This document shows, piece after piece, positions 547 through 56,567 of a stretch of 64,000 nucleotides of DNA. The stretch is from the NCBI GenBank assembly GCA_026874595.1, contig CM049307.1, positions 53,105,370 through 53,169,369 on the forward strand, in the 5' to 3' direction. How positions within the stretch are numbered: position 1 is the stretch's first letter; the number at the start of each line of letters is the position of its first letter. The stretch comes from Sipunculus nudus. Its lineage: Eukaryota > Annelida > Sipuncula > Golfingiida > Sipunculidae. The notes under the pieces were generated by a model, which saw only the letters and a list, made by a program, of their open reading frames with translations, did no database searches and was not told the origin of the DNA. The position numbers and the translations under genes are program-made.

Positions 547-2429
547 ACAAGTGGTCCATGGGCCATGACGCTCAGCTAATTTTGACTGGGTGCTCATTTC
601 CTATTATTAATTTTTTATATTGTGTGTGAGAATAGCCTATGGCTAATGTTACTGTGTTGAAAAATGGACAGAAAACTAGATATTTCTTGGCACTGCAGGT
701 GCCATAGTATCTCAAGACAATTAACCCCCCCCCCCCTCCCCCCAGCCCTTGATAAGATACATTTTACCTGTAAGTTTGGTGACTGTACCAACAATTTTTT
801 TGAGTTATTGTCGTAATTTCATTTTAACATTATCGCTGCTATGACCTTGAACAAATGTATCAAGGTCATCCATGTTCAAATTTGACCTAGCCATTGATAA
901 GATGCATCAAACTTGTGGGTTTGCTGACTGAACCTCAAATTCTTACAAAGTTATTCCGTTTAAACATCATTTTAGCAAGAAAACACCTTTGGCGCCACCT
1001 GTCTTTTGCAGAAAACAATGCTATCAATGATCTTATGTCAATTTGATTTTTGGACCAAACCATGCATCCCTCAGTGAGTTCACATCTGTGACCTTTAAAA
1101 ATGCATCAAGGTCATCCATATTCGAACTTTCACTAGCCCTTGATAAGATGCATCTAAACTGTAGGTTTGGTGACTATACCACAAATTCTTGTTGAGTTAT
1201 TGCCCTAATATCATTTGAGCATAATCGCTGCTGTGACCTTGAAAAAATGCATCAAGGTCATCCATGTTTGAACTTGACCTAGCCGTTGATAAGATGCATC
1301 AAACCTGTGGGTTTGGTGACTGTACCTCAAATTCTTAAAAGGTTTTTGCACTAATATCATTTTAGCATAATCGCTGCTGTGACCTTGAAACAAGGGACCC
1401 ATGGGTAACGGCGCTCAGCTGTTATATATGATAAAAAATATGATTTAAAAATGAGGCACATGCTTGTTTTGTGTGGAAATAAATATAAGCTGTATTATGA
1501 GTTGTGGGTGTTTAGCTTATGTATGATTTGATATTATCTTTGGAGACAAGGAAGAGGATTGATTTCATTTATTTTATTAACAAATGGAGTGCTATTGTCA
1601 CACAGATTTTGACTTGGCCATATAACTTATAAGCAGAACATATACTATAAGAGTTTAACTATTTATTAAAAATAATTACAAATTGTCCCAAATATAATTT
1701 TTATTAAAAATAATAAGAGAATCGTATATTTTTTATAATAAAATACAACTGAAATGATTATTAAAATAGTATCAAAGAATATATTCATGAATGCATTCAT
1801 GAATAATTTTGAAAGTATTTGCACTGGTATTCATTTACTTTCATTTTTACCTGAATTCCCATTCTTATGCAAGAAATTTTATAATGGAGTACATATTCAT
1901 ACATTTGCAAAGTATTCGCACCATGTCTGGTATTTATTCAGTTTTCACCAAACAATGATGTTGAGAATCCAGAATATACAAAATTCACACATTTAAATAA
2001 TGATCATAAGTACCTGGTTTTATGGCTTTTATTCATATTAAAAACTAGATGTGTCGGTACGACACGAATGCCCCCGCCTGGGGCAAATTAGAAACATTTG
2101 TTAAATTTTGTAAAATTTTTCAAGTTCAGGAGGTGTTGTAATGTCAAAAGTAGGTCAAGAAGAGCAAAATGCAAACTCGATCTGTAACGGGTCATTATCA
2201 AGGAACACACCAAAAATCAGGCCAGTATGCAGGCATTGTGAAAAAAAAGTCTATTCATGTGCATTTTTCATAAAAATTTCTGTCTTTCATGAAATTTTTT
2301 ATGTTCAGGATCTGTCATATGGTCAAAAATAGGTTAACTGGGACGAAACGCGAACTCGACCTGTAAGTGGTCATTATGCGCCCACAGACCAGACATTGGG
2401 CCAGTATCTGTAAGCATTGCATTGCGAAA

Positions 2430-3096
2430 CTAGAATATTAGCAAAACCTGGTAATCAGTTATAAATTTAAATTTGAGAGGTATGTACCATGTTTTATAAC
2501 AATCCACCAAATGCTTCCTGAGAAATATCCCCCTAAGTTTTTTTTTCTATACTAAGCTCTGTGACCTTGAAAAGTAGGTCAAGACCACCCATCTCTGAAC
2601 CTGACCAAGATTTTGTAAATATGATGCAAAAGCACTGAAGTAATGAAGTTCCTTAGTTGAATACCTTTGGAGATATCCTGCACAAAGGCCAAAATTGAAA
2701 AATCCGATAAAATTTCATTAAAAAATCAGGAATTGCAGGTGACGCCACCAAAACTGTGCAGCACGTACAGACCATCAGTCCCAATGATCATAGTAAGTTT
2801 TGTGAAAATCCACACAATGGTTCCTGAGATATAAGCTTCTGAGTGTTTTTCTATAATCAGCTCTAAAATGTAGAAAAATGGGTCAAGGTCACCCATCTTC
2901 GAACTTGACCGAGATTTTATCGATATACATCCTCACTGATGAAATAAATTCCAACGGTGAATCCTTTTAGAGATATCCTGCTCACAAGGTTAAAGTTAAC
3001 AGACGCGGAGCGGACGGACGGACGGACATCCGACAGACAGATGGACGGATAGCTTCGGTGACGACAATAGCCCATCAGCCTACGAGATGAGGGCTA
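2430..3096 (+). mobile_element. Family F non-autonomous element nested in A
   Basis: It starts CTAGAATATTAGC at 2430. It ends after GGACGGACGGACGGAC with the hairpin TAGCCCATC...GATGAGGGCTA (3068-3096). Removing it joins ATTGCGAAA to AAAACGGCTGTAC, which restores the family-A unit phrase ATTGCGAAAAAAAGTCCGTAC (seven As, as in the intact units at 3270 and 3450). The insertion is clean, without target duplication, in an oligo-A tract. Length is 667 bp. Confidence 0.7.
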
Positions 3097-3118
3097 AAAA
3101 CGGCTGTACATGTACATT

Positions 3119-3835
3119 TGTCATGAAAATTTATATTTTTCATGAAATTTTCTATGTTTAGGAGCCATAAAACAATCAAAAGTAGGTCAACCGGGACGAA
3201 ACGCGAACTCGATCTGTAACTGGTCATTATCTGCTTACACATAAATAATCAGGCCAATATCTGCAGGCATTGCGAAAAAAAGTCCGTACATGTGTATTTG
3301 TCATGAAAATTTCTATTTTTCATGAAATTTACTAAGTTAAGGAGCCGTAAATGGTCAAAAGTAGGTCAACCGGGAGGAAACGCGAACTCGATCTGTAACT
3401 GGTCAATATCTGCATACACACCAAAAATCAGGCCAATATCTGCAGGCATTGCGAAAAAAAGTCCGTACATGTGTATTTGTCATGAAAATTTCTATTTTTC
3501 ATGAAATTTTCTAAGTTAAGGAGCCGTAAAACGGTCAAAAGTAGGTCAACCGAGAGGAAACGCGAACTCGATCCGTAACTGGTCAATATCTGCATACACA
3601 CAAAAATCAGGCCAATATCTGCAGGCATTGTGAAAGAAAGTCCGTACATGTGTATTTGTCATGAAAATTTCTATTTTTCATGAAATTTTCTAAGTTAAGG
3701 AGCGTAAAACGGTCAAAAGTAGGTCAACCGGGACGAAACGCGAACTCGATCTGTAACTGGTCATTATCTGCCCACACACCAAAAATCAGGCCAATATCTG
3801 CAGGCATTGCGAAAAAAAGGCCGTACAACTGTTTG
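3119..3835 (+). repeat. ~180-bp tandem repeat inside family A (4 units)
   Basis: Units begin at the phrase TCATGAAAATTTCTATTTTT at about 3119, 3300, 3480 and 3659, giving a period of 179-181. A diverged unit lies at 2265, before the family-F insertion. Each unit contains a perfect small hairpin, TCATGAAAA...TTTTCATGA, and the phrase GGTCAAAAGTAGGTCAACC. Confidence 0.8.
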
Positions 3836-4559
3836 ATCTCGGAAGGACGGAAGGACGGACATGGGTAAAACTACATGCCCCGGCCACTTTGTGGCGGGGG
3901 CATAAAAATAAATGTAATATATTCATTTTGGACTAATTTCACATCAATGTACACACTAGACACAGCATGAATCTAGATTAATATTATCAACTGCATCTTT
4001 GTCTATCATTAATTTCCTTCATATGATCCTTAATCATTAGTAATGAATAATATGATTTATTTTTTTATCATTAAAATTGAACTAAAAAATACCATAGGTA
4101 ACTGCATGGTGTTATTTGGAATACCTGACATTCTATCAATCGAAACAAGATTCTTATATCATCAGTACCTTCAAGTTAATTTCCTGTTATTATCAACTAA
4201 CAAATTCCTTTTCAAATTTTCTTTAATTTGTTATTAAAAAGCAATAAAAATTTATTAATTTATTGTTTATTGTTATGTTGTTAGTTAAAACTACTAGATG
4301 AGTTGGGTTGAACACCTGGATCAACTGTGGCTGGCCATAAGCTGCCTGGCTGCCCCAGTGTATGCCCCGCGTCAAGCGTGCATAATTTGATGAAAGGTCA
4401 ACAAGTTCAACATACAGGTGACTCAAGAGGGGCTGGGGAGAGCCAAGGTCTGACATGGTCTCATAAAGACATTATTAAAAGCTACAATTTTTGGCCAATT
4501 CCTTTTAGCTTTTTAAACTAAAAAGCTGAAATCCTTATGTATGCATGATATGAAAATTA

Positions 4560-5800
4560 TATCTATAGTGCTCTCAGGAAACAAACGTGCCATGGTCAAA
4601 TTTGGGCAAAATTTAAGGTACTAATTTTATTTTTATACTAATAACTTATAAAATTTGAAAAATTCAAACTAATTTTGGGTATTCAATTGAAACTTGATTA
4701 AATAATGTTACATCCCTGACAAAAAATCTCTAGCTTCAGCAATCCTCTTGTTAAGGGAGTAAATATATTTCTTGATTTTTTACAAAGTGCATTATGTTTG
4801 GGCCCATAACTTAAAACAATTACACAATACTGACATCATTTCTGGCATGTGCATAGAGACTGTATAGCAAATTTGTATATTATATATGATTAAAGTCAGA
4901 TCAGTTGTTTTGATATTAGGCAGTCTTGAAGTGTAAACAATGGGTTTTTAATGGAAAAATGAAGTTTTTCATTAATATCTCGAAGGTATTAAGTCCTAGT
5001 GACCAAATTCTTGGCATGGTAGGGGATTTTGGAGACATCTAATTGTATGCCAAATTTTTGGAACTGAGAGCTGAAGCTGGGGAGCTGAGCTCTTGCAAAC
5101 TGCATAACACTAGCTTGATGTAAACAAGGTGTTACATGGTGCTTAAAAACTTGAATAAAATCTACAGTTTTTGATCAACTGGTTTCAAATTTTTGGTGTT
5201 AACAGACAAAATGCTAACAAAAACATGCTGTGAAAAATAAAATCCACAGTACTTACAGGAAAAAAAACGTGCCATGGTCAAAGTTGGGCAAAATGTAAGG
5301 TACCAATTTTTTATTTTTGTTAATATTTCAAAAAATTTAAAAGATTTTAATCTAATTTTGGGTATTAATTTTGATTAATAAAAGTTATATTACTGGAAAA
5401 AAGTCCATAGCTTTAACATGTTTTGTGTTAAGTGATCAAATATATTTCCTGATTTTTTACAAAATGCATTTTGTTTGGGCCCATAACTTTTTTAAATTAT
5501 ATAATACAGACATAATTTCTGGGATGTACATAGGAACTATAAAGGGGAATATTCATGGTAAATATGAGGAAAAACAGATGAGCAGTTTTGATATTAGGCA
5601 TTCCTGAAGTGTGAAAATAGGTTTTTAATAAAAAATTGAGGTTTTTCCTTAATTTCTCAAAGGAACGAAGTCACAAAGACCCAGTTTTCGGCTTGGGAGG
5701 AGATCTTGGGGACATCTAACATTATGCCGTCTTTGGATTCCTAGGTCTTACGGTTTCAAAACGTGCCACATCAATGGACGGCCAGACGGACGGACGACGG
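4560..5800 (+). repeat. ~675-bp duplicated unit in the body of H
   Basis: The phrase GTGCCATGGTCAAA followed by TGGGCAAAAT and AAGGTAC occurs at about 4588 and 5268, and the sequence after both copies is alignable to the end of H. The same body recurs, inverted, at 20685-21990 and in direct orientation at 23990-24660. It is non-coding and AT-rich. A further CTAGATGAG start-like motif is at 4294. Confidence 0.65.
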
Positions 5801-6639
5801 ACAATGGACCATGACTATAGCTCAGATGACTTATAGTCAGCTGAGCTAAAAATGCATCAAGGTCATCCATGTTTAAAATTTACCTAGCCCTTGATAAGAT
5901 GCATCTCTAAACTGTAGGTTTGGTGACTGTACCTCAAATTCTTACAAAATTATTGCGTTTACATCATTTTAACGAGAAAACGACACAAGGTGGCGCCACC
6001 TGCCTTCTGCAAAAGACAAAGCTATCCAAGATCTTCGGTCAATTTGATTTTTTTATCATTCCATGTATCCCTTACTGAGATATTATAGATTTTGTGTGAA
6101 TTTCACCAAATATGGGAATATTAAAGGTCAAGCCCACTCTCATAGGAAAGGTCATGACCCCAATTTAAATAAACATCATGCCATAACCCATATGTATGTA
6201 TATGCATAATATCAAAGATATCTGTCCATTAGTTTTTGACTTATAATTCTCACAGTACTGTCAAGTGGCAATTTTGGGGGTATTAAAAGGCATGAAAACA
6301 AGAAAAGAAAGATAGTCGGCACCACCAGTTTCTGGAACTTGACAACCCTATCCCTGATCTTCGATCAACTTGATTTTGGGAATCCATGCAAGATTTTTTG
6401 AGATATTTAAGAATTTGTGAGATTTTCCCCAAAACTGGACCTATTCAAGGTCAAGGACACTCTCCTAGTTAAGATCATGACCTCTTTTTGAATAGGTGTT
6501 GTCCTCTCACCCATATCTATACATATACCGTGAAATATTTTTTGAGTTATCGCGCCAACAAGATTTATATGCGGCGGCGGCGGGGGGACCGGCATGAAAA
6601 CATAGTATCCCCCGACTTTGTCTGGGGATACAATAAATA

Positions 6640-7930
6640 TTTCAGGATTCATAGGAGACCTGGCCAGGACCCCCCTGGATTTCACAATAGACGGTTCAAA
6701 GGAAAATGGATATAAATTGTACGCTGTCTGGGTGCTCAAAATCATATTTCTGGTCCATAGTTAGCATTATATACGTCACTATGACCCAATTTCGGGTTTC
6801 CAAGGGGAACTGCAAGGGACTTCCCTGAATGTCATGTTAGAAGAGTCTAGGGCTAATGGATACAATTTGTGTTTTCGGCCTGTAGGTCACAAAATATAGG
6901 TCACTATGGCCTAAATTCAGGTTTCCAAGGAGATATGCCTAGAACCTCCCTTGATATTGTGTTAGCAGATTCTAGGAGTCTAATGGATACAATTTGTGCC
7001 TTGTGTAACTTTATGTTTGCTCAAACCATTTTTTAGTGCAAGGGTCACAGAATATAGGTCACCATGAATTAATTTCAGGTGTCCAAGGACATTTGACTAG
7101 GACGACCCTGAATTTAATGTAAGAAGATTCTAGGCCTAATTGATACAATTGTTCCCCGTCTGACTGTCTGGGTGCTTATATGACATCTTTTCTGATAGAT
7201 TGCAAAATAACGGTCATTGTGAACTTATTTCAGTTTTCAAAGGACATTTGCCAAAGACTTCTCAGAATGTTAAATCAGGACATTCTAGGCTAAACAGATA
7301 CAATGTGTGCCCTAACTGACTGTTTGGGTGCATATATGACTTCTTTTTCCTATAGGTCGCAAAATATAGGTCATGGCGACTTAATTTAAGTTTTCCCAGG
7401 ACATTTGCCAAGGACGTATCAGAACGTTACATTAGAAGATTCTAGGCCTAAAAAATACAATCTATGCTGACTTTGTGGGTGCTCAAATCCTGTTTTTGGC
7501 CTGTGGGTCACATAATATAGGTCACTATGATGAAATTTCAGGTTTCAAAGGAGATTTGCAAAGAACCTCCAAAGATATTGTGTGAGAAGATTCTAGGCCA
7601 AACAGACATAATTTGTGCTTTGTCTGTCTGGGTGCTTAAAACCATTTATCAGCCCATAGGTCACAGAATATAGGTCACCATTACCTAATTTCAGGTTTCC
7701 AAGGACATTTGCCTAATTCCTGTCATGTCGGAGGATTCTAGGCCTAATTGATACAATTTGTGCACCATCTGACTGACTGGATGCTTATATGACTTCTTTT
7801 CCTTTAGGTAACATAATATAGGTCATGGTGACCTAACTTCGGGTTTCCAAGGAGAAACGCCCAGGACCTCCCTTAATGTACAGTTAGAAGTTTCTAGGTC
7901 TAACCGTTACGATTTTTGCCCTGTTAACAG
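6640..7930 (+). repeat. Diverged ~150-bp tandem array (about 8 units)
   Basis: The phrases GGTTTCCAAGG (6797, 6930, 7079, 7233, 7390, 7531, 7694, 7842, with variants), TTCTAGGCCTAA and GATACAATTTGTG recur every 133-163 bases. It ends at the GACGGACGG run at 7931, as expected for the body of a family-H element. No unit is coding. Confidence 0.7.
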
Positions 7931-7990
7931 ACGGACGGACGCCAGACAAAGGGTGATCGCTATGGCTCAGATGACTTACAGTTCATATTT

Positions 7991-9182: not shown

Positions 9183-11838
<2,656 letters not shown>

Positions 11839-11954
11839 TTATTTTTAAAATTTAATATTGATCCTCTTAAGTCCTGCATATCTATCTTAGTCATTATAAT
11901 TTCAGCAAAATGGACGTTTCGCACCTGCAAGTTTCAGACTAGGACATTTGAAAA

Positions 11955-14900
11955 CTAGAATATGGATAATCGACAAGCGACTATGTGTATCCGCAGAAAT
12001 CAGAGTGGGACAGGTGAAGTGAGGCATGGATTAAGTGGCAAGGGGAAAAGAGTGAGGTGTGTGCATATTAGCATGGATGTCTGCAGCGTAAACGTGAATA
12101 TAGGTGGTGCCCCCTGTCATAGAATCGAGAAAATTGTCAAGGATGTATAAACCTGCAAAATTTCAGGTGGATAAGTCAAACCATTGCTGAGATATGAGTG
12201 ATTTTATACCAAGGTAGATGAACAGATGGACGCTGTGCATAAGTGGTTGCAGGTGGCGCCACCAGTTTTGCCTATGATGGAGAGGTATGTGAGATATATA
12301 CAACAGCAAAATTTTGGCCCAATTGGTCAAACGGTTCCCGAGATATGAGCTACGATGTCTGCAGAGTAAACGTGAATGTAGGTGGTGCCACCTGTAAAAA
12401 AATCGAGAAAGCTGTCCAAGATGTATTAACCTGCAAAATTTTAGGTGGATAAGTCAAGCCATTTCTGAGATATGAGTGATTTTATCCCAAGACAGATGAA
12501 CAGATGGACGCTGTGCATTAGTGGTTGCAGGTGGCGCCACCAGTTTTGCCTATGATGAAGAGCTATGCGAGATCTATACACATGCAAAATTTTGGCCCAA
12601 TTGGTCAAACAGTTCCCGAGATATGAGCTTGGACGTCTGCAGAGTAAACCTGAATGTAGGTGGCGCCACCTTTCATAAAATCAAGGGAGCTGTGCAGGAT
12701 GCATAAACCTGCAAAATATCAGGAGGAAAAGTCATACCACTGCTGAGATATGAGTGATTTTATCCCAAGGCAGATGAACAGATGGACGCTGTGCATAAGT
12801 GGTTGCAGGTGGCGCCACAAGTTTTGCCTATTATAAAGAGCTATGTGAGATCTATACACATGCAACATTTTGGCCCAATCGGTCAAAAGGTTCTCGAGAT
12901 ATGAGCTTGGATGTCTGCAGAGTAAACCTGAATGTAGGTGGCGCCACCTATCATAAAATCAAGAGACCTGTCCAGGATATATAAACCTGCAAAATTTCAG
13001 GTGGATAAGTCACACCACTGCTGAGATATGAGTGATTTTATCCCAAGCCAGATGAACAGATGGACTCTGTGCATAAATGGTTGCAGGTGGCGCCACCAGT
13101 TTTGCCTATGATGAAGAGCTGTCTGAGATCTATAAACCTGCAAAATTTTAGGTGGATAAGACAAGCCACTTCCGAGATATAAGTGATTTTATTCCAAGGC
13201 AAATGAACTGATGGACGCTGTCCATAATCGGTTGCAGGTGGCGCCACCAGTTTTGCCTATGATAAAGAGCTATGTGAAATCTATACACATGCAAAATTTT
13301 GGCCCAATTGGTCAAACAGTTCCCGAGATATGAGCTTGGATATCTGCAGAGTAAACCTGAATGTAGGTGGCGCCACCTTTCATAAAATCAAGAGAGCTGT
13401 GCAGGATGTATAAACCTGCAAAATATCAGGTGGAAAAGTCACATCACTGCTGAGATACGAGTGATTTTATCCCAAGGCAGATGAACAGATGGATGCTGTG
13501 CATAAATGGTTGTAGGTGGCGCCACCTGTTTTGCCTACCGTAAAGAGCTATGTGAGATCTATACACATGCAAAATTTTGGCCAAATCGGTCAAACGTTCC
13601 CGAGATATGAGCTACAATGTCTGCAGAGTAAACCTGAATGTAGGTGGCGCCACCTGTCATTAAATCGAGAAAGCTGTCCAGGATGTATAAACCTGCAAAA
13701 TTTCAGGTGGATAAGTCAAGCCACTTCTGAGATATGAGTGATTTTATCCCAAGGCAGATGAACAGATGGACTCTGTGCAAAAATGGTTGCAGGTGGCGCC
13801 ACCTGTTTTGCCTATGATGAAGAGCTGTCTGAGATCTATACACATGCAAAATTTTTGCCAAATCGGTCAAACGGTTCCCGAGATATGAGCTTGGATGTCT
13901 GCAGAGTAAACCTGAATGTAGGTGGCGCCACCTGTCAAAAAATCGAGAAAGCTGTGCAGGATGTATAAACCTGCAAAATTTTAGGTGGATAAGTCAAGCC
14001 ATTTCTGAGATATAAGTGATTTTATTCCAAGGCAAATGAACTGATGGACGCTGTCCATAATTGGTTGCACGTGGCGCCACCAGTTTTGCCTATGATAAAG
14101 AGCTATGTGAAATCTAAACACATACAAAATTTTGGCCCAATTGGTCAAACAGTTCCCGAGATATGAGCTTGGATATCTGCAGAGTAAATCACTGCTGAGA
14201 TACGAGTGATTTTATCCCAAGGCAGTTGAACAGATGATTGCTGTGCATAAATGGTTGTAGGTGGCGCCACCTGTTTTGCCTATGATGAAGAGCTATGTGG
14301 GATCTATACACATGCAAAATTTTGGCCAAATCGGTCAAACGTTCCCGAGATATGAGCTTCGATGTCTGCAGAGTAAACCTGAATGTAGGTGGCGCCACCT
14401 CTCATTAAATCGAGAAAGCTGTCCAGGATGTATAAAAAACCTGCAAAATTTCAGGTGGATAAGTCAAGCCACTTCTGAGATATGAGTAATTTATTCCAAG
14501 ACAAATGAACAGATGGACGCTGTGCATAAGTGGTTGCAGGTGGCGTCACCAGTTTTGCCTATGATGAAGAGCTATGTGGGATCTATACACATGCAAAATT
14601 TTGGCCAAATCGGTCAAACGTTCCCAAGATATGAGCTTGGATGTCTGCAGAGTAAACCTGAATGCAGGTGGCGCCCCATGTCATTAAATCGAGAAAGCTG
14701 TCCAGGATGTATAAACCTGCAAAATTTCAGGTGGATAAGTCAAACCCCTCTTGAGATATGAGTGATTTTATCCAAAGGCAGATGAACAGATATACGCTGT
14801 GCATAAGTGGCTGCAGGTGGCGCCACCAGTTTTGCCTACTGTAAAGAGCTATGTGAGATCTATACACATGCAAAGTTTTCGCCAAATCGGTCAAAAGGTT

Positions 14901-16990: not shown

Positions 16991-17030
16991 ACGACCCCCC
17001 ACCATCGCATAAGCTCACAGGTTCGCTTAA

Positions 17031-18568
<1,538 letters not shown>

Positions 18569-18628
18569 GAATGGTTTTTCCCCAGTGTGTTTCCTTGCAT
18601 GGTCTGTGAAGTTCCTTTTTACCCTAAA

Positions 18629-18637
18629 ACCTTAACC
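18629..18637 (-). other. In-frame TAA stop inside a finger
   Basis: On the minus strand the finger reads CEDCG-stop-GFRVKRNFTDHARKHTGEK. A lysine codon AAA changed to TAA is the simplest explanation, because CGKGF or CGKCF is the family pattern. No frameshift is present here, so this is a single-base nonsense lesion, a polymorphism or a sequencing error. Confidence 0.75.
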
Positions 18638-19611: not shown

Positions 19612-19619
19612 GTGACATG

Positions 19620-23600: not shown

Positions 23601-24660
23601 ATTCATAAGCTTTATCGACTCGATATAGTATCACAGTGGAGAAACATTTATAGTCCAATCACGATCAGCTGAGCGCCGTGACCCATGGGTCCCTTGTTTT
23701 AATTTTAGCCAATTATTTTGGTTTTTCATAGATATAAGCATTTGATAAGCTAAGAGGAAATTGCCCTGCTAAAACTGCAGACAGCCTGATCAAGCTCAAC
23801 TCATAGAGAGAGGGCTTGCCCTAGTGATGGGATTGCATAACATTATGCCAACAACTTGGGGGGGAATCATAGAGAGCTGCACTGAATGACCTACAGTGAC
23901 CAAAGTGGACTGCTTGACAATTTACGGGAATACAACAAGAGCCTCCAAAAAAAATCAATAACTAGCCTAATTTTGCAGCTTTTTTTTCAAATTTCAGATT
24001 TTAACAGATTAAATCCTTATGTGCACATGCTGTGAAAATTAAATCCACAGTACTTACAAGAAAAAAATGTGCCGTGGCCAAAGCTGGGCAAAATTTAAGG
24101 TACCAATTTTTTATTTTTGTTAATATTTTGAAAAATTTAAAAGATTTTGATCTAATTTTGGGTATACAATTCAATTTTGATTAATTAAAAATATATAACT
24201 GGAAAAAAAGTCTTTAGCTTTAACATGTTTTGTGTTAAGCGATCAAATATCTTTCCAGATTTTTTACAAAATGCATTATGTTTGAGCCAATAACTTTTTT
24301 AAATGACATAATACAGATCTTATTTCTGGCATGTACATAGGAACTATATAGAGGAATATTTATGGTAAATATGAGGAAAAACAGATGAGTGTTTTTGATA
24401 TTAGGCAGTCCTGAAGTGTGAAAATAGGTTTTCAATAAAAAATTGAGGTTTTTCCTTAATTTCTCATAGGAACGAAGTTGCAAAGACCCAGTTTTCAGCT
24501 TGGTAGGAGATCTTGGGGACATCGAACGTTATGCCAAATTTTGGATTCCTAGGTCCTACAGTTTCAAAACGTGCCACATCTACGGATGGACGGACATTCG
24601 GAAGGACTATGGACAATGCACCAGGACTATTGCTGAGATGACCTATAGTCAGCTGAGATA
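20654..24660 (+). mobile_element. Family H copy, interrupted by an inverted H copy
   Basis: The 5' end is ACAAGGGACCCATGGTC at 20654. The H body resumes at about 23690 (unit with GGCAAAATTTAAGGTACC at 24090) and the 3' end is the hairpin remnant at 24636-24660 (GCTGAGATGACC...AGTCAGCTGAGATAA). Another H element is inserted in the opposite orientation just after the start, between T residues. Confidence 0.55.
20685..23683 (-). mobile_element. Family H copy, inverted and nested
   Basis: On the minus strand it starts ACAAGGGACCCATGGGTC at about 23683, with CGGCGCTCAGCTGA. It ends in the hairpin AGCTCAGATGACT...AGTCAGCTGAGCTAA near 20685, preceded by a long GACGGACGG-type run (20720-20780). The body includes two units of the ~675-bp repeat and about 1.6 kb of unique AT-rich sequence (22000-23640). 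No convincing coding exon. Confidence 0.6.
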
Positions 24661-24661
24661 A

Positions 24662-25264
24662 CTAGAATACGGGAAGTCAACAAGCAATTACGTGTATCCG
24701 CCAAAATCAGAGTGGGACGGGTGAAGTGAGGCATGGATTGAGTGGCAAGGGGAAATAGAGTGAGGTGTGTTGCATAATAACCTGGATGTCTGCAGCCGAA
24801 ATGTATATGTAGGCTGCCACCTACCACAAAATCCAGAGAGCGGTCCAAGTTGTATACATACATTTTAGGCAGATAAGTCAAACCACTACTTGTATATGAG
24901 TGATTTTATTCCACAGCAGACAAACAGAAGGACGCTATGCAAAAATGGTGGCAGGTTGCGCCACAAATATTGTGTATGACTGAGAGCTATGTGAGATCTA
25001 TACACATACAAAATTTCCCGAGATATGTGGGTTTATGTGTGGAAACAGACGCACAAATGGACGCTGGGCAGAAAAAGGGTCAGAGGTCAACCAAAAATGA
25101 GGGCGCAGCAGTTCACATGTGCTATGAACATGATTCCTAATTTAAAAAAATTCTGCCCAGTGGTTACGGAGGAGTTCTCCAGAAACCTATGCAGCAGTGG
25201 CAGTGGCAGAAGTGTCCAACTGCAAACATAGTATCTGCAAAACTCTGATTTGGCGGATACAATG
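24662..25264 (+). mobile_element. Family C short copy
   Basis: CTAGAATACGG at 24662 is followed by TGTATCCGCCAAAATCAGAG at 24693-24712. The right end CTCTGATTTGGCGGATACA (25243-25261) is its reverse complement apart from one A. The 3' end also forms a local hairpin, GTATCTGC...GGCGGATAC. About 1.5 internal 278-bp-type units lie between. No coding potential. Confidence 0.75.
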
Positions 25265-26168
25265 ATTGTAGCTGTCTTGTATACAACAAAGAGATATATA
25301 CATATGCCCAATTTCAGACTGATATGTCAAACCCCTCCTGTGAAATAAGCAAGGACATACACTGTGCCAAAATTATTGCAGGTGGCACCACCAGTTTTGT
25401 ACACTATAAAGCTACCCGATATGTATAAACATGCCCAATTTTATGCTGATGTATCGAATTCTTCTGCAGAAATAAGCAGGCGCATACACTGCAAAAGTCA
25501 ATGTAGGTGGCACCACCTGTCTTGTAAATGAGAATACCATCAAAGTCGCAGAGACAGGTCAAAATATCAGGCCAATACATCAAACTTCCCCAGAGTTTGG
25601 TGCACTGGGCTGACGAGGCTTAGGTGAGTAAGGCAGTTGCCCCCGAGTGACCTGTGACAAATTGCTGCCTCAAGCTACTGCACAGAGTGAACTCTTGACC
25701 TGCACCTGGCTAGACTGAGTGAACTATTGACCTGTACCTGGCTGCACTGAGAGAATTCGACCTGACACAGTTTGCAGTCTGCCAAAGCTAAAAAATAGAT
25801 CCAGGCTGAAATTTGGTGCCAAATCTGATGCAGTGAGCAGTCTGCCAAAGCCATAAATAGAATGCAGCTACTGCACTGAGTGAACTCTTGACTTATACCT
25901 GGCGGCACTTCTTCCAATCCTGGCACTGTGCAAAAACTATTTATAGAGCTGACATCATCTTGGCTAATGGTCAACATCAAGGCATTGGCAGTCTGCCAAT
26001 GGTAAACCAAGTGCTGCCATCTGTACATAAAAGTGGTCCCTACTTGAACTTGAAATAACGTTGAAATTAATTTTCGTAATTCAAAATGCTTTTCAGCTGA
26101 CTTTTATAAAAAAGAAATTAGGAATACATGTAAAATTATTACAGATGCATACTGGATGCAAAATTAAA
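25265..26168. other. No gene; diverged C-like and unrelated repeats
   Basis: Diverged units with GGTGGCACCACC lie at 25380 and 25507. From 25610 to 26000 is a low-complexity series of related phrases (GAGTGAACT-TTGACCTG-ACCTGGCT, repeated about four times, and CAGTCTGCCAA, four times). The 117-residue open frame on the minus strand here is repeat-derived. Confidence 0.5.
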
Positions 26169-27936
26169 CTAGAATACGGGTAGTCGACAAGCGACTACGT
26201 GTATCCGCCTAAATCAGAGTGGAACGGGTGAAGTGAGGCATGGATTAAGTGGCAAGGGGAAATAGAGTGAAGTGTTGCATATTAGCATGTATGTCTGCAG
26301 CCAAATTGTGTATGAAGGTTGCCACCCCCCCCCCCCCCCACCACAAAATCCAGAGGGCCGTCCCAGTTGTATACATATGCAAAATTTAAGGCAGATAATT
26401 AAAACCACTACATGTACATGAGTGATTTTAGCCCGTGGCAGACAATCAGATGAACGCTGAGCAAAAATGGTTGCAGGTGACGGCACCAGTTTTGCATATG
26501 ATAAAGAGCTATGTGAGAACTATACACATGCAAAACTTTGGCCCAATCGGTCAAACGGTTCCCAAGATATGAGCTTGGAAGTCTGCTGCATAAACTAGAA
26601 TGCAGGTGGCTCCACCTGTCATAAAATCAAGAGAGCTGTCGGGGATGTATAAACCTGCAAAATTTTAGCCAGATATGTCAAACCACTGCCGAGATATGAG
26701 TGATTTTATCCCATGGCAGACAAACAGACAGGAGCTGTGCAAAAATGGCTGCAGGTGGCACCACCAGTTTTGCGTATGTTATAAAGCTCTCCAAGGGCTA
26801 CGTTTGCGCAAAAAAATTTCCCTGATCGGTCTAACGGTTCCCGAGATATGAGCTTGGATGTCTGCAGCGTAAACGTGAATGTAGGTGGCGCCACCTGTCA
26901 TAAAATCAGAAAAGCTATCCAGGATGTATACGCATGCCAAATTTCAGGTGAATTAGTCAAGTCACTGCAGAGATATGAGTGATTTTAACCCAAGGCAGAC
27001 AAACAGATGGACACTGTGCAAACATGGTTGCAGGTGGCGCCACCATTTTTTGTGTATGTTATAAAGCTCTCCAAGGGCTACATTTGTGCAAAAAAATTTT
27101 CCTGATCCGTCAAACGGTTCCCGAGATATGAGCTTGGATGTCTGCAGCGTAAACGTGAATGTAGGTGGCGCCACCTGTCACAAAATCAGAAAAGCTATCC
27201 AGGATATATACGCATGCCAAATTTCAGGTGAATTAGTCAAGTCACTGCAGAGATATGAGTGATTTTAACCCAAGGCAGACGAACAGATGGACAATGTGCA
27301 AACATGGTTGCAGGTGGCGCCACCATTTTTTGTGTATGTTATAAAGCTCTCCAAGGGCTACATTTGTGAAAAAAATTTTCCTGATCGGTCAAACGGTTCC
27401 CTAGATATGAGCTTGGATGTCTGCAGCGTAAACGTGAATGTAGGTGGCGCCACCTGTCACAAAATCAGAAAAGCCATCCAGGATGTATACGCATGCCAAA
27501 TTTCAGATGAATTTGTCATGTCACTGCAGAGATATGAGTGATTTTAACCTAAGGCAGATGAACAGATGGACACTGTGCAAACATGGTTGCAGGTGGCGCC
27601 ATCCTTTTTTGTGTATGTTATAAAGCTCTCCAAGGGCTACATTTGTGCAAAAAAATTTTCCTGATCCGTCAAACGGTTCCCGAGATATGTGGGTTTATGT
27701 GTGGAAACAGACGCACAAACGAACGCAGAGCGCAGAGGAAAGGTCAGAGGTCAAAACAAAATCGGGGCGCAGCAGTTCACATGTGACCCGAACATTATCC
27801 CGGGTTTCGTAAAATTCCGCCCAGCGGTTACGGAGGAGTTCTCCGGAAACCTACGCGGCGGCGGCAGCGGCGGCGGCGGCGGCGGCGTGCAGCTGAAAAC
27901 ATAGTATCCGCAAAACTCTGTTTTGGCGGATACAAT
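26169..27936 (+). mobile_element. Family C element with internal 278-bp array, both ends present
   Basis: The 5' end is CTAGAATACGGGTAGTCG at 26169, hairpin GTAGTCG...CGACTAC (26179-26197), then TGTATCCGCCTAAATCAGAG (26200). The internal units at 26750, 27027, 27305 and 27583 are 277-278 bp apart and carry GGTGGCGCCACC. The 3' module is a GCGGCGGCGG run (27854-27888), AAACATA, and the hairpin GTATCCGCAAAA...TTTTGGCGGATAC (27904-27933). This is the best-preserved member of the family. Confidence 0.8.
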
Positions 27937-28611
27937 TACAGATGTACCATACTGATGGCAAATTCTTGAAATAAGTTGAGTAGGGATACCGATAGTTTAT
28001 AATCCATGTACAATTGTATTTATATAGCCACAGAGAGCTGAATATCCATGAATATCCCATTGCCTGGTGTGATGAATAACTTAAATTATAAATCTAATTT
28101 TTTAAACGCTTTAAAAAAAACTTTTTTTGTCAATATTAACCAAAGATAACCTGAACTCTAAATGTCTAGTGGCATGATGTAATAGATGCTGATAAACTGG
28201 TGCCAGGCTAGATGTAACAGCATCACACAGCTGACATATATGATAAAATGACTCAATTCAATCTCCAAAATTCAGCCAAAAATTATTCTTGTAAAATATT
28301 TAACAAACTGGCTTCAGTGGCATCAGTCAAAAATAGTTTTGCAAGTTTATAACCCATATATGAAGATACAGCAAACTGGCTAAGTTATGCTTCCTGTAAC
28401 TCAGCCAAAAAGCACTGAACCAAAACCATTTGAACCAACTTGAATTATCATCATCTGAGGATAATTAATGTGTGAGATTTAAGAAATTGGCCTAGTGGTT
28501 TTTGAGGAGAAGATCTGTGTAGCCACTGAACTAAAATGGGATGTTATGGCATATGACTAAATTCAGCTTCCCATAACTTAGCCAAAAGTCACTGAACAGA
28601 GACCATTTAAA
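27937..28611. other. No gene; G-like body fragments
   Basis: The segment contains CAGCCAAAAA, AACTTGAATTATCATC and GGCCTAGTGGTTTTTGAGGAGAAGAT phrases that resemble the family-G body (compare 16650-16810). No open frame with coding character. Confidence 0.5.
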
Positions 28612-31600
28612 CTAGATGACCTGAGGTCACGCGCTTGCCGGAAATGATGTAAAGTTAGTCAGATGAACGAGCAGTGTCAAAGTGAAAGAAAATAATCCAT
28701 AGTTTGTGAAGAAAGAACCAATATTAACAAAGTTCTAAAGAAAATAAGATTTTGATATATTTTGATCACCTTGACCTTGATCTTTAACTTATTTGAATAA
28801 TAAACATAGGGCTTCCAGATATCATCACGATATATGACAAGTGTAATTTACAAAACGATTCCTGCAAAACTGTGGCCAGTAGAATGCTACATGTGAGACG
28901 CAAGAACCAGGAAGCAGGCGAAATTGAGGACAACTGACAAACAGACAAACATACTGACCCAAGATTGAGAACAGATGACTTAATCATGTTATGAAGAAAC
29001 CTAAGAGGAAGATAATAAGCTATAATTTATGTAAATGAGGTTAATAGTTTTGGAGATATGGCCAAAAAATGATATGTTGTGCAAGTTTGAGTGCAGCGCC
29101 CCCTAGCGGCCAATTCTGGAAAATGAAAAATCGGTTTCGAGATATTAGTGTGAGACATAAGATGTAATAGTTTTAAAAAGATTCTTTCAAAACTGTGTCC
29201 TGTAGAATGCTATATGTGAGACGCAAGAACCGGCAAGCAAGCGGATTTGAGGACAACTAAGAAACAGACGGACACACAGACAAAGTGACAGAAGATTGAG
29301 ACCAGATGACTAAACGAATTCATGAAGAAGACTTAGTTGAAAAAAATAAACTATAGTTTTTGTAATTGAGGCTTATAATTTTGGTGATATTGCCGAAACA
29401 TGATAAGTTGGAGAGGTTTGCACCCAGCGCCCCCTAGCGGCCAAATTAAAAAAATGAAAAATTGGTTTCGAGATAATAGTGTAGGACTTAAGATATGCCA
29501 GTTTCAAAAAGATTCCTGCAAAACTGTGGCCTCCAGGGCAAGATTACTGAAATCTCGAAATATCTCGTTTGACGAGATATTATACGAGATATTGCGAGAC
29601 TCTTAATAGAATCTTGTAGTACTAGGTGAATGCTACTTGAAGCAAAAAACTAGACCTCTGTAGCTTTAAAACTGACAAATTTAGAAAAATATCAGCACTT
29701 TTCACCAAAAATGCGTTACCATGGTTACCACAAATTGAGTCAGCTACACACCAGAAAACAGGCCTTGGAATGACGATTAAAATGAGCTACTGTTGAAGTA
29801 GATATGACCAATATTAACACAGATATGAACAAAAAACCGTTTTGTGTACTTTTGATGACCTTGACCTTGACATTTGACCTATAATGCCCAAAAACAATAG
29901 GCCTCCAGGACTTTTGCTTGTCTACCAGCTGTATAAGTTTGAAAGCAATTGCTGGAAAATTGTGGCCTGTAGAGAGTACACAGACAGACAGACAGACAGA
30001 CAGACAAACTAGATGACCTGAGGTCACGCGCTTGCCGGAAATGATGTAAAGTTAGTCAGATGAACGAGCAGTGTCAAAGTGAAAGAAAATAATCCATAGT
30101 TTGTGAAGAAAGAACCAATATTAACAAAGTTCTAAAGAAAATAAGATTTTGATATATTTTGATCACCTTGACCTTGACCTTTGACTTATTTGAATAATAA
30201 TCATAGGACTTCCAGATATCATCACGATATATGACAAGTGTAATTTACAAAACGATTCCTGCAAAACTGTGGCCAGTAGAATGTTACATGTGAGACGCAA
30301 GAACCAGGAAGCAGGCGAAATTGAGGAAAACTGGCAAACAGACAAACATACTGACCCAATATTGAGAACAGATGACTTAATCATGTTATGAAGAAACCTA
30401 AGAGGAAGATAATAAGCAATAGATTATGTAAATGAGGTTAATAGTTTTGGAGATATGGCCAAAAAATGATATGTTGTGCAAGTTTGAGTGCACCGCCCCC
30501 TAGCGGCCAATTCTGGAAAATGAAAAATCGGTTTCGAGATATTAGTGTAAGACATAAGATGTAATAGTTTTAAAAGGATTCTTTCAAAACTGTGGCCTGT
30601 AGAATGCTATATGTGAGACGCAAGAACCGGCAAGCAAGCGAATTTGAGGACAACTGAGAAACAGACTGACACACAGACAAAGTGACTCAAGATTGAGACC
30701 AAATGAATACACCAGGTTTTTGGAAAGACCCAGAGGAAGAAAATAAGCTATAGTTTATGTAAATGATGTTTATAGTTTTGGAGATATGGCCAAAAAATGA
30801 TATGTTGTGCAAGTTTGAGTGCACCGCCCCCTAGCGGCCAATTCTGGAAAATGAAAAATCAGTTTCGAGATATTAGTGTAAGACATAAGATGTAATAGTT
30901 TTAAAAAGATTCTTTCAAAACTGTGTCCTGTAGAATGCTATATGTGAGACGAAAGAACCGGCAAGCAAGTTGATTAGAGGACAACTGAGAAACAGACGGA
31001 CACACAGACAAAGTGCGAAAGATTGAGACCAGATGACTAAACGAATTCATGAAGAAGACTTAGATGAAAATAATAAACTATAGTTTTTGTAATTGAGGCT
31101 TATAATTTTGGAGATATTGCCAAAACATGATATGTTGGAGAGGTTTGCACCCAGCGCCCCCTAGCGGCCGAATTAAAAAAATGAAAAATTGATTTCGAGA
31201 TAATAGTGTAGGACTTAAGATATGCCAGTTTCAAAAAGATTCCTGCAAAACTGTGGCCTCCAGGGCAAGATTACTGAAATCTCGAAATATCTCGTTTGAC
31301 GAGATATTATACGAGATATTTCGAGACTCTTAATAGAATCTTGTAGTACTAGGTGAATGCTACCTGAAGCAAAAAACTAGACCTCTGTAGCTTTAAAACT
31401 GACAAATTTAGAAAAATATCAGCACTTTTCCCCAAAAATGCGTTACCATGGTTACCGCAAATTGAGTCAGCTACACACCAGAAGACCGGCCTTGGAATGA
31501 CGATTAAAATGAGCTACTGTTGAAGTAGATACGACCAATATTAACACAGATATGAACAAAAAACCGTTTTGTATACTTTTGATGACCTTGACCTTGACAT

Positions 31601-33691
31601 TTGACCTATAATGCCCAAAAACAATAGGCCTCCAGGACTTTTGCTTGTCTACCAGCTGTATAAGTTTGAAAGCAATTGCTGGAAAATTGTGGCCTGTAGA
31701 GAGTACACAGACAGACAGACAGACAGACAAACAAACTAGATGACCTGAGGTCACGCGCTTGCCGGAAATGATGTAAAGTTAGTCAGATGAACGAGCAGTG
31801 TCAAAGTGAAAGAAAATAATCCATAGTTTGTAAAGAAAGAACCAATATTAATAAAGTTCTAAAGAAAATAAGATTTTGATATATTTTGATCAACTTGACC
31901 TTGGCCTTTGACTTATTTGAATAATAAACATAGGACTTCCAGAAATCATCACGATATATGACAAGTGTAATTTACAAAACGATTCCTGCAAAACTGTGGC
32001 CAGTAGAATGCTACATGTGAGACGCAAGAACCAGGAAGCAGGCGAAATTGAGGACAACTGACAAACAGACAACATACTGACAAACTGACCCAAGATTGTG
32101 AACAGATGACTTAATCATGTTATGAAGAAACCTGAGAGGAAGATAATAAGCTATAGTTTGTGTAAATGAGGTTTATAGTTTTGGAGATATGGCCAAAAAA
32201 TGATATGTTGTGCAAGTTTGAGTGCACCGCCCCCTAGCGGCCAATTCTGGAAAATGAAAAATCCGTTTCGAGATATTAGTGTAAGACATAAGATGTAATA
32301 GTTTTAAAAGGATTCTTTCAAAACTGTGGCCTGTATAATGCTATATGTGAGACACAAGAACCGGCAAGCAAGCGGATTTGAGGACAACTGAGAAACAGAC
32401 GGACACACAGACAAAATGACTCAAGATTGAGACCAAATGAATACACCAGTTTTTTTTAAAGACCCAGAGGAAGATAATAAGCTATAGTTTATGTAAATGA
32501 GGTTTATAGTTTTGGAGATATGGCCAAAAAATGATATGTTGTGCAAGTTTGAGTGCACCGCCCCCTAGCGGCCAATTCTGGAAAATGAAAAATCTGTTTC
32601 GAGATATTAGTGTAAGACATTACCTGTAACAGTTTTAAAAGGATTCTTTCAAAACTGTGGCCTGTAGAATGCTATATAAGAGACGCCAGAACCGGTAAGC
32701 AGGCGATTTTGAGGACAACTGAGAAACAGACGGACACACTGACAAAGTGACTCAAGATTATGTCAAAATGACTCCACCAGAATTTTGAAAAGACTCAGAT
32801 GAAGAAAATAAGCTATGGTTTATGTAATTGAGGCTCACAGTTTTGGAGATATGGCCAAAACATGATAAGTTGGGGAGGTTTGCATACAGCACCACCTAGT
32901 GGCTGCATTCAAAAAATGGAAAAACGATTTCGAGATAATAGTGTAGGACTTACGATATGAAAGTTTCAAAAAGATTCCTGCAAAACTGTGACCTCCAGGG
33001 CAAGATTACTGAAATCTCGAAATATCTCGTTTGACGAGATATTATACGAGATATCGCGAGACTTTTAATAAAATCTTGCAGTACTTGTTAAATGCTACCT
33101 GATGCAAAAAACTAGACCTCTCTAGCTTTAAAACTGACAAAGTTAGAAAAATAAGACCCCTTATTTCAGAATATCATGACTTTTTCCCCAAAATACGTAA
33201 CCATGGTTACGGCAAATTTGAAAGAGCTACACACCAGAAGAAAGGCCTGGGAATGACGTTTAAAATGAGCTATGTTTGAAGAAGATACCACTAACAGTTA
33301 CAAAGATATGAAGAAAAAACCGTTTTGAGAAGTTTTGATGACCTTGACCTTGACCTTGGACCTATGTCGCCCAATAACAATAGGCCTCGAGGACTTTTGC
33401 TTGTCTATCAGCTGTGTAAGTTTAAAAGCAATTGCTGCAAAATTGTGGCCTGTAGAGAGTACACAGACAGACAGACAAACAAACAAACAGACAAACAGAC
33501 ATCCGCGACTGACTAACCTGCTTGCAGAAATCGAAGATTTCCGGCAAGCAACAAACAGACAAACAGACATCCGCGACTGACCAACCTGCTTGCAGAAATC
33601 GAAGATTTCCGGCAAGCAACAAACAAACAGACAAACAGACATCCGCGACTGACCAACCTGCTTGCAGAAATCGAAGATTTCCGGCAAGCAA
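28612..33691 (+). mobile_element. Family D head-to-tail array (three starts, three end hairpins)
   Basis: Three 5' ends (CTAGATGACCTGAGGTCA, then GCTTGCCGGAAAT) lie at 28612, 30009 and 31736, with no 3' end between them. At the right end the terminal hairpin GCTTGCAGAAATC...GATTTCCGGCAAGC occurs three times in a 68-72-bp repeat (33520-33549, 33588-33617, 33660-33689). Its right arm is the reverse complement of the 5' motif GCTTGCCGGAAAT. Bodies contain GACCTTGACC clusters, CCCCCTAGCGG motifs and CAGACAGACAGA runs. No proteins; the CLSVCLSVC-type frames are translations of the simple repeats. Confidence 0.75.
29095..32905 (-). repeat. Eight CTCF-core-like motifs in the D array
   Basis: Minus-strand CCGCTAGGGGGCG(C/G) occurs at about 29095-29111, 29426-29442, 30492-30508, 30822-30839, 31153-31169, 32225-32242 and 32556-32573. 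A variant, CCACTAGGTGGTGC, is at 32887-32905. They match the core CCASYAGRKGGCRS with about one mismatch, all in the same orientation. Spacing follows the ~330-bp subrepeat. Binding is inference. Confidence 0.55.
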
Positions 33692-34304
33692 CAAACTTCA
33701 GAAAGCAGTACTTGGGGATCATTTCTGTGTGATATTAAACATTTTGGCCATATGGTTTCTGAGAAGAAGTTTTTTGTAGCCCTCAGTGTGATACAGGCAC
33801 TGATGACCCCGTACAAAAAAGCGAATGCAGGTTGCGCCACCAATACCTCAATTTCAGATACGACCTATGTGACCAACATTAGCATAAAATTTGGTGATGA
33901 TAGCTCCAGCCCTTTCTGAGATTTAAATTTTAATATGCTTTTTTGGACAGATGACAAAGATCAACCTCCTGTAACTCGGCCAAAAATCTCTGAATTGGAA
34001 CCATTCAAATAAACTTGAGAAAGATTGTTCCAGGGATCATTTCTGTGAAATATAGGACAATTTGGCTGGACAGTTTCAGAGAAGAAGATTTTTAAAGCTT
34101 TTTTAGCTTTTTCCAAATAAAATCTAAGAAAATGCAGTAAGAAAAAAATAAACAAAACCCTATATAGTATTTTGGATGACTGATTATTTGCAAAATCTTT
34201 GGTGATGCGAGCTCCTACCGTTTTGAGGTAGCTATGGTTAACGTACAGACAACGCACGACACACAACGGAAGCCGCATCATCGCATAAGCTCACAGGTTC
34301 GCTA
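33692..34304 (+). mobile_element. Family G 3' part
   Basis: It is alignable with 16530-17030: GTTGCGCCACCAATACCTCAATTTCAGATA, TTGTTCCAGGGATCATTTCTGTG and GAGGTAGCTATGGTTAACGT. It ends GCATAAGCTCACAGGTTCGCTAA at 34284-34305. The 5' end is missing at the D boundary. Confidence 0.65.
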
Positions 34305-35372: not shown

Positions 35373-35519
35373 ATAAGTGACAAGGCTTATAGGATACAAG
35401 TAACATGTATCTATTGTCGATAAAAGGGTCCTGAACGGTAGGCACTACTTCTACAGTCGCACCACGGAATCTCTAGTGGGTAGGCACGGATTCTCTAGTC
35501 GCACCGAGTTTTTATATGG

Positions 35520-35760: not shown

Positions 35761-35837
35761 AGGTCATATTACAACACTTACCATCTGTTCCGTAGGCTGG
35801 TACTGTCAGAGAAAAACAAATATACCACTACCAGACC

Positions 35838-36392: not shown

Positions 36393-36421
36393 TACCAGAC
36401 CCAGAGAGTAGGGGCCGGAGT

Positions 36422-36640
36422 GCTACCCTGTCCTGTAGTGGTACATTTGTACTACTACAGGTCACTGGGCTGTACCAGTACAGGCCACTGTGCTACCCCT
36501 TCTCTGGCCAATCATGGGACTTGATGCCTGACTGGGGGCATAGGAGGATCAGGGCTACCAGGGCAATTAGTGATGAGGACACAGTGGTCAGCTGATTATC
36601 TGCTTTGGTATTACTGTAGTATTAAGATAACAACAACAAT
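36422..36640 (+). repeat. Left arm of a long inverted-repeat pair
   Basis: It begins GCTACCCTGTCCTGTAGTGG and ends TTAAGATAACAACAACAA. Its reverse complement, about 90% identical with small indels, is at 40719-40977. It contains its own hairpin (CCTGTAGTGGTAC...GTACTACTACAGG). Confidence 0.75.
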
Positions 36641-36975
36641 AGTCATGAACCTCCTTTATTGTGTGCACAAATCAAGCAATAGATAAACTCAGAAGTAGGA
36701 ATCTGTTATACTTCTAAGATAATATTAAATATAACAAACAAATTGAAAACTTTTTGTGTTGAATTGGAAGATATAGACCCACTTTGCCATACCAAAAAAT
36801 TCACATATGTGTATTCCCATTTATATGAAAATAAAGTATATTTAATGTGTTGGAAGTCACCTGGAAGTGACAGACAATGCTCAAAATGCATAAAACTTGG
36901 AAGTTGATCACACTGCACCAACCAACAACCAATAACTTTTAGTGGTTTATTTTAGGAAGTTTTATTATATTATAA

Positions 36976-38530
36976 CTAGACATTTCTTGGCACCGCTGGT
37001 GCCATAGTATCGCCAGACAAATGAGGTTTTGTGGTATTTTGTTGATATAATGTGATATAATGCTGACAATACTGTCAAGTCCCATATAGGCAACATTCAT
37101 GAGCCATTTTAAATAGTCTTCGTCCAAAGGTCAAGACCACTCTCAAAGGAAAATGATCCAGTTGTGACTCTGTGGTACACCCAGTGCACTAATTCATTTA
37201 TCACTGACCATCATATCTATTTATAGAATCTGACCATGGCCCAGAACTGCTGATGTTTGGGCAAAACATGATGCAACACCATGTGCAGACCACTAGCTGA
37301 AGCAATCCCCCAGGTTCACTGGAGATTTTCATGATTGTTGGTGATTTTTACCATATATGGCAATATTTAAAGTCAAGTCCACTCTCATATGCAAGGTCAG
37401 GACCCAAATTTAAATATATCTCATCCCATAATCCAAATCTGTGTATATGCATAATATAAAAGAAATCTGTCCATTAGTTTTTGACTTATAATGCTCACAG
37501 TGCTGTCAAGTGGCCCTTTTTAAGATATTCATGATTTTATGTTTTTCACCAAATATGGGAATATTCAAGGTCAAGGTCACTCTCATAGTCACGGTCATGA
37601 CCCCAAATCAATAAACTGCATTCCAAAATATCCAACATTTGAAAAAAAAATTAAATTAAAAAAAAAATAATTTAAATTATATTAAATTTTAAAATTAAAT
37701 TTAAAATTAAATTTAAAATTAAATATACCTCATTCCATAAACCATATCTATATACATGCATAACATGAAAGAAATCTGTCCATTACTGTTTGACTTATAA
37801 TGCTCACAGTATATACTGTCAAGTGGCAATGATGGGGTATTCAAAGGCGCAAAAAACAAGTAAAGAACAATAGGTGGCGCCACCTATCTTCTGCAAAAGA
37901 CAAAACTATCCAAGATCTTCCGTCAACTTAATTTTTGGACCAATCCATGCATCCCTTTTTAAGATATTCATGATTTTATGTGATTTTCACCATATATGGT
38001 AATATTCAAGGTCAAAGCCACTCTCAAAGGAAAGGTCATGACCCCAATTTTAATATACATCATCCTATAACCCATACCTATGTACATGCATAATATTAAA
38101 GAAATCTGTCAATGAGTTTTTGACTTGTGATGCTAAAAGTACTGTCAAGTGGCAATGATGGGGGTATTAAACGGCACAAAAACAAGAAAAGGATACTAGG
38201 TGGCACCACCAGTTTCCGGTACATGACATCACTATCCAAGATCTTTGTCCAACTTGATTTTTGGATAAATCCATGAAAGATTTCTTGAGATATTTAAGAA
38301 TTTAAGTGATTTTCCCCAAAAATGGATCTATTCAAGGTCAAGGTCACTCTCCTAGTTGAGGTCATGACCCCATTTTAAATAGGCTTTGTCCTCTCACCTA
38401 TATCTATAAATGTGTCAAGTTTGAAAAAGATCCTTGAAATATTTTTTGAGTTATTGTGTCCAAAAGAAATCTCTGCGGCGGCGCAACCGTGCCTAAACCA
38501 TAGTATCTCCAGACTATGTATGGCGATACA
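36976..38530 (+). mobile_element. Family B element, both ends present
   Basis: The 5' end is CTAGACATTTCTTGGCACC at 36976 with hairpin GGCACCGCTGGTGCC, then ATAGTATCGCCAGACAAA. The 3' end has TGCGGCGGCGC (38474), ACCATA, and the hairpin GTATCTCCA...TGGCGATAC (38503-38529), followed by AATAA. Internal units repeat (CACTCTCATAGTCAAGGTCATGACCCC and GACTTATAATGCTCACAG, about three times, with GGTGGCGCCACC at 37871). An AT-only patch (37640-37725) interrupts it. Confidence 0.75.

Positions 38531-56515: not shown

Positions 56516-56567
<52 letters not shown>

Follow-up and report, generated by a model that had tools for sequence, protein, structure and literature searches.

The window analyzed here, that is, the whole stretch of 64,000 nucleotides from the annelid Sipunculus nudus (contig CM049307.1 of assembly GCA_026874595.1, positions 53,105,370 to 53,169,369), contains multiple interspersed repeats of several families, designated A, B, C, D, G, and H, with individual copies numbered as in Table 1. 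A preliminary description of this DNA, made from its letters alone, had noticed that in each family a short motif just inside one end, taken to be the 5' end, is the reverse complement of an arm of a hairpin at the other end, and that the two change together from family to family. We consider it very likely that these repeats are non-autonomous Helentrons (HINEs) of several families, each residing on the strand opposite to the one originally read (minus for A to D and G, with one whole H copy on plus). The assignment to Helentron/HINE elements with sub-terminal inverted repeats (subTIRs), already proposed in that description, is borne out by the matching layout. The end rule shared by the families, at first thought unusual, is what is expected of the Helentron/HINE class, being its published layout (PMC4067079, PMC7492417). 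The architecture is thus a published one, and the window families represent additional HINE families, not a new class. The more than routine parts are the link of family H to Rep-helicase (RepHel) loci and the empty insertion sites.

On the corrected strand, the elements follow a common order: a T-run, a 5' subTIR, a short loop, an inverted repeat (IR) complementary to the subTIR (not clear in G), satellite-like repeats, a 3' subTIR, a palindrome, and the terminus, which is CTAGTT in A to D and CTTGTT in G and H (AACTAGA or AACAAG on the strand originally read). A microsatellite is found on the 5' side (GTCC-type in A and H, TGTTTGTC in D), and a perfect palindrome with arms of 6-7 nt lies between the terminus and the former 5' motif in A, B (both B1 and B2), C3, D, and H; two G loci outside the window copies (L064 and L068) possess a perfect 3' palindrome as well, AGGCCT-gt-AGGCCT. 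In the published HINE layout, the subTIR, the complementary IR, and the microsatellite are on the left, and the 3' subTIR followed by the palindrome is on the right (PMC7492417), and a 3' palindrome, subTIRs, and a TT target have been described for HINEs and Helentrons (PMC4067079). Because the order on the opposite strand matches this layout, the former 3' hairpin is the true 5' end, composed of the 5' subTIR and the IR, and the former 5' motif is the 3' subTIR; the polarity was therefore inverted in the preliminary description, and the corrected order follows from the T-run, the microsatellite, the palindrome, and the RepHel frames. The bodies of the families had been described as unrelated, which needs a qualification, as the hairpins of B and C are all followed by TATG (GATACTATG). 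Taken together, the HINE features found are the 3' palindrome, the 5' IR, the subTIRs, tandem repeats with a microsatellite, and a T-run target without duplication. The elements appear to lack coding capacity: of the 20 window frames of at least 120 amino acids, a single one (33298-33864, 188 amino acids) overlaps them, in D and G.

The complementarity of the ends was assessed for seven window end-pairs (A, B1, B2, C3, D, H, and G, the G ends coming from different copies) as the longest exact complementary match that the first 18 nt of one end find within ~60 nt of the opposite end, compared with 5000 shuffles. The match is of 11 nt in A, 9 nt in B2, 9 nt in C3, 13 nt in D, and 10 nt in H (each p <= 0.0014), so that the matched ends claimed for every family stand in these five, but are weak in B1 and G. 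Compared to the class norm of ~11-15 nt, A and D reach it, H, B2, and C3 fall slightly short, and B1 is degenerate. The motif pairs originally quoted are present and family-specific: among all 5040 permutations, none gives a higher total than own-family pairing, and two reach this maximum, the true one and the one in which B1 and B2 are swapped. The 5' hairpin taken alone (5' arm versus the following ~24 nt) is significant in A, B1, C3, D, and H (p 0.001-0.026). The predicted DNA duplex is lowest for the own partner in six of seven rows, B1 pairing better with B2; the predicted 5'-3' duplex exceeds the 5' hairpin in stability in every end-pair but B1 (6/7), and it beats the separate 5' and 3' folds summed in all except A and B1 (5/7). 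For G, better copies pair 10 of 11 nt, as read by eye, between a 5' end GCGAACCTGTG (L008 and the window) and a 3' end CACAGGTTTGC (L064 and L068), again from different copies. A structural scan of the collected loci and the window for CT(A/T)GTT with a palindrome, and then for an upstream complement, returned 25 candidates, 12 of them paired, versus 16 and 3 in reversed sequence; it was left out of family counting because several of the 12 pairs are chance pairings.

The insertion sites provide another line of evidence. Joined flanks of the elements were compared with the collected genomic loci, the junctions being read by hand, and empty sites were recognized for four insertions: A (empty site in L002), C3 (L062 and L007), outer D (L062 and L008), and the C copy carried by L062, whose empty site is at window 26082-26171. 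In all four, the flanks meet inside T-runs without target duplication, so the duplications typical of transposons with terminal inverted repeats (TIRs), named at the outset as a finding that would speak against the class, are absent. The junction is exact for the L062 copy of C, differs by a single substitution in C3 and in D, and in A is ambiguous as to the exact base owing to T-run length. No empty site for the B1 insertion was found among the loci compared.

These families are abundant. In the genome of 1.43 Gb, 3' termini were counted for four families against a reversed-pattern control, resulting in 16,988 copies for H (8499+8489; control 0; 25 nt, up to 2 mismatches), 12,230 for C (6167+6063; control 0; 35 nt, up to 3 mismatches), 4,500 for B (2247+2253; control 0; 33 nt, up to 3 mismatches), and 4,212 for A (2078+2134; control 1, as 1+0; 23 nt, up to 2 mismatches). 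The sequence ATGCCCCCGCC occurs 7,835 times in the genome (control 107), and the A 3' end has no matches in viral contigs. Variation within a family was followed in 20 C copies of ~2.7 kb each, every fifth of 100 listed zero-mismatch places on a single contig, 17 of which possess a recognizable 5' hairpin within the stretch taken. The 9-nt core is identical at both ends in 12 of the 17, changed on one side only in 5, and changed in a matched manner in none, and thus no within-family covariation was found in these 17 copies with both ends. The search behind this sample fixed the palindrome, the terminus, and the last base of the 3' subTIR, and the 5' search needed GTATC, so that changes in the latter would be missed. 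The 20-nt match originally quoted for C is present in copy C2, but in 8 of the 17 copies the loop of the 5' hairpin is other than the CAGAG type, and the match then ends after ~9-13 nt. The variant 3' arms of A seen in L005 are likewise one-sided.

As to autonomous partners, the Rep domain PF14214 has 143 matches in the genome (150 scored of 195 first-look candidates), some of these being parts of one gene. The protein at locus C11:50385293, judged by its domains, possesses the Helentron architecture with a fused endonuclease (PF21107, PF20209, PF02338, PF14214, PF05970, and PF03372, i.e., STPR, DUF6570, OTU, Helitron_like_N, PIF1, and Exo_endo_phos), and no ends were found for its element; an endonuclease frame is also present at one C13 locus. 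The preliminary description had called for a Rep-helicase element with the same ends, and for family H the 3' end of such an element was found: at two of six Rep loci examined for ends, C7:71189229 (plus) and C17:35630192 (minus), the H 3' terminus lies downstream of the Rep-PIF1 frame on the same strand. The window H element has 41 bp (95%) in common with the C7 locus and 36 bp (89%) with the C17 locus, too little for these ends to have come from an inserted copy of it. At C17, two H-type 5' ends are found upstream on the same strand, with one H 3' end in 22 kb. With one H 3' end per ~168 kb per strand, chance alone would place one no more than 1.3 kb downstream of ~0.8% of frames; the true chance rate is higher, because the C17 end is more diverged than the count search mostly allows.

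A number of results weigh against the assignment to HINEs or against this link. At the ends, the subTIR complement is weak in B1 (6 nt, p 0.15) and G (7 nt, p 0.04), the 5' hairpin alone is non-significant in B2 (5 nt, p 0.22, imperfect) and G (3 nt, p 0.99, with no clear IR hairpin within the ~24 nt compared), the window palindrome of G is imperfect (p 0.42), and the palindrome of A is borderline against shuffles (p 0.054). The open reading frame (ORF) is reversed in some published Helentrons (PMC4067079), and therefore the ORF alone cannot fix orientation; the T-run side, the microsatellite side, and the position of the palindrome all agree with the orientation it gives. HINE-type ends were not found at the other four of the six Rep loci (e1 at C11, e2 at C4, and two at C13, the latter as 4.5-kb pieces), an inverted-pair search at e1 and e2 having yielded none that combined the expected hairpin with the palindrome. 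Upstream of the C7 frame, exact motifs searched across 12.8 kb and a tolerant search of the nearer 5.3 kb revealed no H-type 5' end, and the endonuclease piece of this locus, ~330 bp before the H 3' end, is below the Pfam cut-off (PF14529, E 5e-5). The 1999 amino acids searched at C17 yielded no endonuclease, and the H-type 5' ends of this locus could belong to a separate HINE lacking a 3' end, because they are followed by repeats resembling window 6639-7982. In a set of 30 Rep loci taken with flanks of 1.5 kb, L036 alone carried an end belonging to a window family (A-type 5' end, other strand), and neither these loci nor the six searched for ends provided an autonomous partner for A, B, C, D, or G.

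The matching of ends across families has also been explained by compensatory selection for continued pairing of the 5' motif with the 3' hairpin, in the orientation originally assumed, and one position at which the hairpin stems of B1 and C3 differ, with both partners changed, agrees with such selection. That orientation is contradicted by the RepHel frames, by the side of the T-run and the microsatellite, and by the previously unlisted palindrome, and the changes in the C core, one-sided and never matched, lend no support to selection on pairing. As decay after insertion could also yield one-sided changes, this is absence of support and not disproof, and overall we find this explanation quite improbable. 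Even less credible are cut-and-paste miniature inverted-repeat transposable elements (MITEs), in which the motif and its complement would be ordinary TIRs with an incidental hairpin: numerous non-coding copies and ends that complement each other would suit these, and the Pearl elements were first called MITEs (PMC7492417), but fixed-length target duplications are absent at the four insertions with empty sites, the repeats abut one end (0 nt) and lie ~21-35 nt inside the other, the palindrome and the IR are one-sided, and the same 3' terminus is found behind RepHel frames. Least of all would we argue for canonical Helitrons (Helitron1), defined by 5'-TC, 3'-CTRR, and insertion between A and T (PMC5148889). 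The window elements resemble them in the hairpin near the 3' end and in the absence of target duplication, but possess neither 5'-TC nor 3'-CTRR, do possess subTIRs, and target T-runs, and the C11 Rep protein carries a fused endonuclease and an OTU domain.

If the families are HINEs, a Helentron HUH Rep-helicase would recognize the single-stranded 5' hairpin and the 3' subTIR with its palindrome, nick at T, move one strand, probably through a circle, and join it into T-runs. A single protein lineage would have to recognize both ends, and for this reason the subTIR, the IR, and the 3' subTIR would change together at family splits, a joint change that needs no selection on pairing. The two ends, as modeled, could also pair in a single-stranded intermediate. 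On the transferred strand, the 5' subTIR can pair either with the neighboring IR, forming the start hairpin, or with the 3' subTIR, but not with both at once, and a switch between these partners might hand the Rep protein from initiation to end-joining, with base-pairing carrying family specificity, a speculation we regard as rather unlikely.

Table 1. Elements recognized in the window, with their ends (strand as corrected).
Feature	Position	Strand	Basis or details
HINE A, whole, in T-run	2043..3903	-	Ends, empty site L002, genome 3' terminus count
A 5' subTIR (3893-3903) and complementary IR (3875-3885), hairpin	3875..3903	-	5'-IR run 7 nt, p 0.012
A 3' subTIR, 11 nt complementary to 5' subTIR	2068..2078	-	Complement test
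A 3' palindrome GTGTCG-tac-CGACAC, then CTAGTT	2051..2065	-	p 0.054 alone versus shuffles
HINE B1, interrupted by A and H-type element	674..6631	-	Hairpin 6605-6631, 3' subTIR 707-720, palindrome 688-704; match weak
HINE B2	36974..38529	-	5' subTIR and imperfect IR hairpin 38503-38529, 3' subTIR 37007-37015, palindrome 36988-37004
HINE C3, 278-nt satellite-like repeats	26167..27933	-	SubTIR/IR hairpin 27904-27933, 3' subTIR 26201-26209, palindrome 26180-26198
HINE C2, short copy	24660..25260	-	Hairpin 25231-25260, 3' subTIR 24694-24702, palindrome imperfect
HINE C1, with repeats and a 3' end at 11953; no 5' end found	11953..16040	-	
HINE D, three copies	28610..33689	-	3' ends 28610, 30007, 31734; 5' hairpins 33520-33549, 33588-33617, 33660-33689
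D 3' palindrome (28617-28629) and 3' subTIR (28633-28645), 13 nt complementary to 5' subTIR	28617..28645	-	
HINE H	20679..23698	+	5' subTIR 20679-20689, IR 20697-20707, GTCC microsatellite 20724-20776, end CTTGTT
HINE H, 3' side		+	3' subTIR 23665-23674, palindrome 23680-23691
G, 5' side, terminal AGCGAACCTGTG, IR not clear	33824..34303	-	
G, 3' side of another copy	11782..11963	-	GGTTCGC, imperfect palindrome, CTTGTT
Probable H-type element split by B1	547..7982	-	5' terminal arm lost near 7982, H-like 3' end near 547-580

The elements are partly nested in one another. The three D copies would be the product of two nested insertions, the inner two residing inside the outer ones' own TGTTTGTC microsatellite. 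The H-type element split by B1 is probably the family F of the preliminary description, reported there without coordinates. An H-like 3' terminus at 20651-20679 is truncated by the 5' end of the plus-strand H element, and a short G-type element is present at 63126-63593 (minus), whose own two ends no longer match. The palindrome AGGTGGCGCCACCT recurs in the central repeats of more than one family, in C (e.g., within 26862-26902) and in B2 (near 37873-37886).

Other features of the window are of different kinds. Tandem repeats of 83-84 nt occupy 9417-11776 and 17027-18501 (minus), and the frame 17852-18631 encodes an array of C2H2 zinc fingers. The repeats at 9.4-11.8 kb seem to be a decayed relative; their one frame searched, 10697-11584, had no zinc-finger match, and a CENP-W match just over the cut-off is probably spurious. 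A non-LTR (long terminal repeat) retrotransposon is present at 50875-54318 (minus), with a reverse transcriptase in a frame of 734 amino acids and an endonuclease frame, and is flanked by two mutually inverted blocks of ~203-nt repeats (47705-49805 and 55975-57233).

Overall, what appeared as a puzzle of covarying ends resolves into correctly oriented Helentron families with insertion sites, copy numbers, and, for H only, candidate autonomous loci, and a genome in which each of the four families counted has 4,212 to 16,988 ends presents a good test ground for the choice of ends by the Helentron Rep protein.

Among the closest known systems is Cg_HINE of Crassostrea gigas (PMC7492417), the likeness being one of element style and layout. 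The features in common are a 5' subTIR (11-12 nt), a complementary IR, a left GTCC-type microsatellite, satellite-like repeats, a 3' subTIR followed by a palindrome, and an oligo-T target without target-site duplication. Unlike the H family, whose 3' terminus is found behind RepHel frames, the oyster HINEs are described in that paper as not relatable to autonomous elements. The bivalve Pearl elements, re-categorized as non-autonomous Helentrons (PMC7492417), are alike by description in their central tandem repeats. The HINE/DINE-1 elements and the Helentrons of mites, mosquito, and Drosophila (PMC4067079) share the subTIRs, the IR nested with the 5' subTIR (in DINE-1), the 3' palindrome, the TT target, and, in autonomous partners, a RepHel with a fused endonuclease, but the mite 3' subTIRs are 38-60 bp from the 3' end, versus ~21-35 bp here. 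Another comparison is with FoHeli1/2 of Fusarium oxysporum, of the Helitron2 group (PMC5148889), for which joined ends, evidence for a circle, have been reported: their termini are different, and fungal Helitrons are reported there to be without the endonuclease domain, but FoHeli1/2 too possess an asymmetric inverted repeat inside the terminal hairpin.

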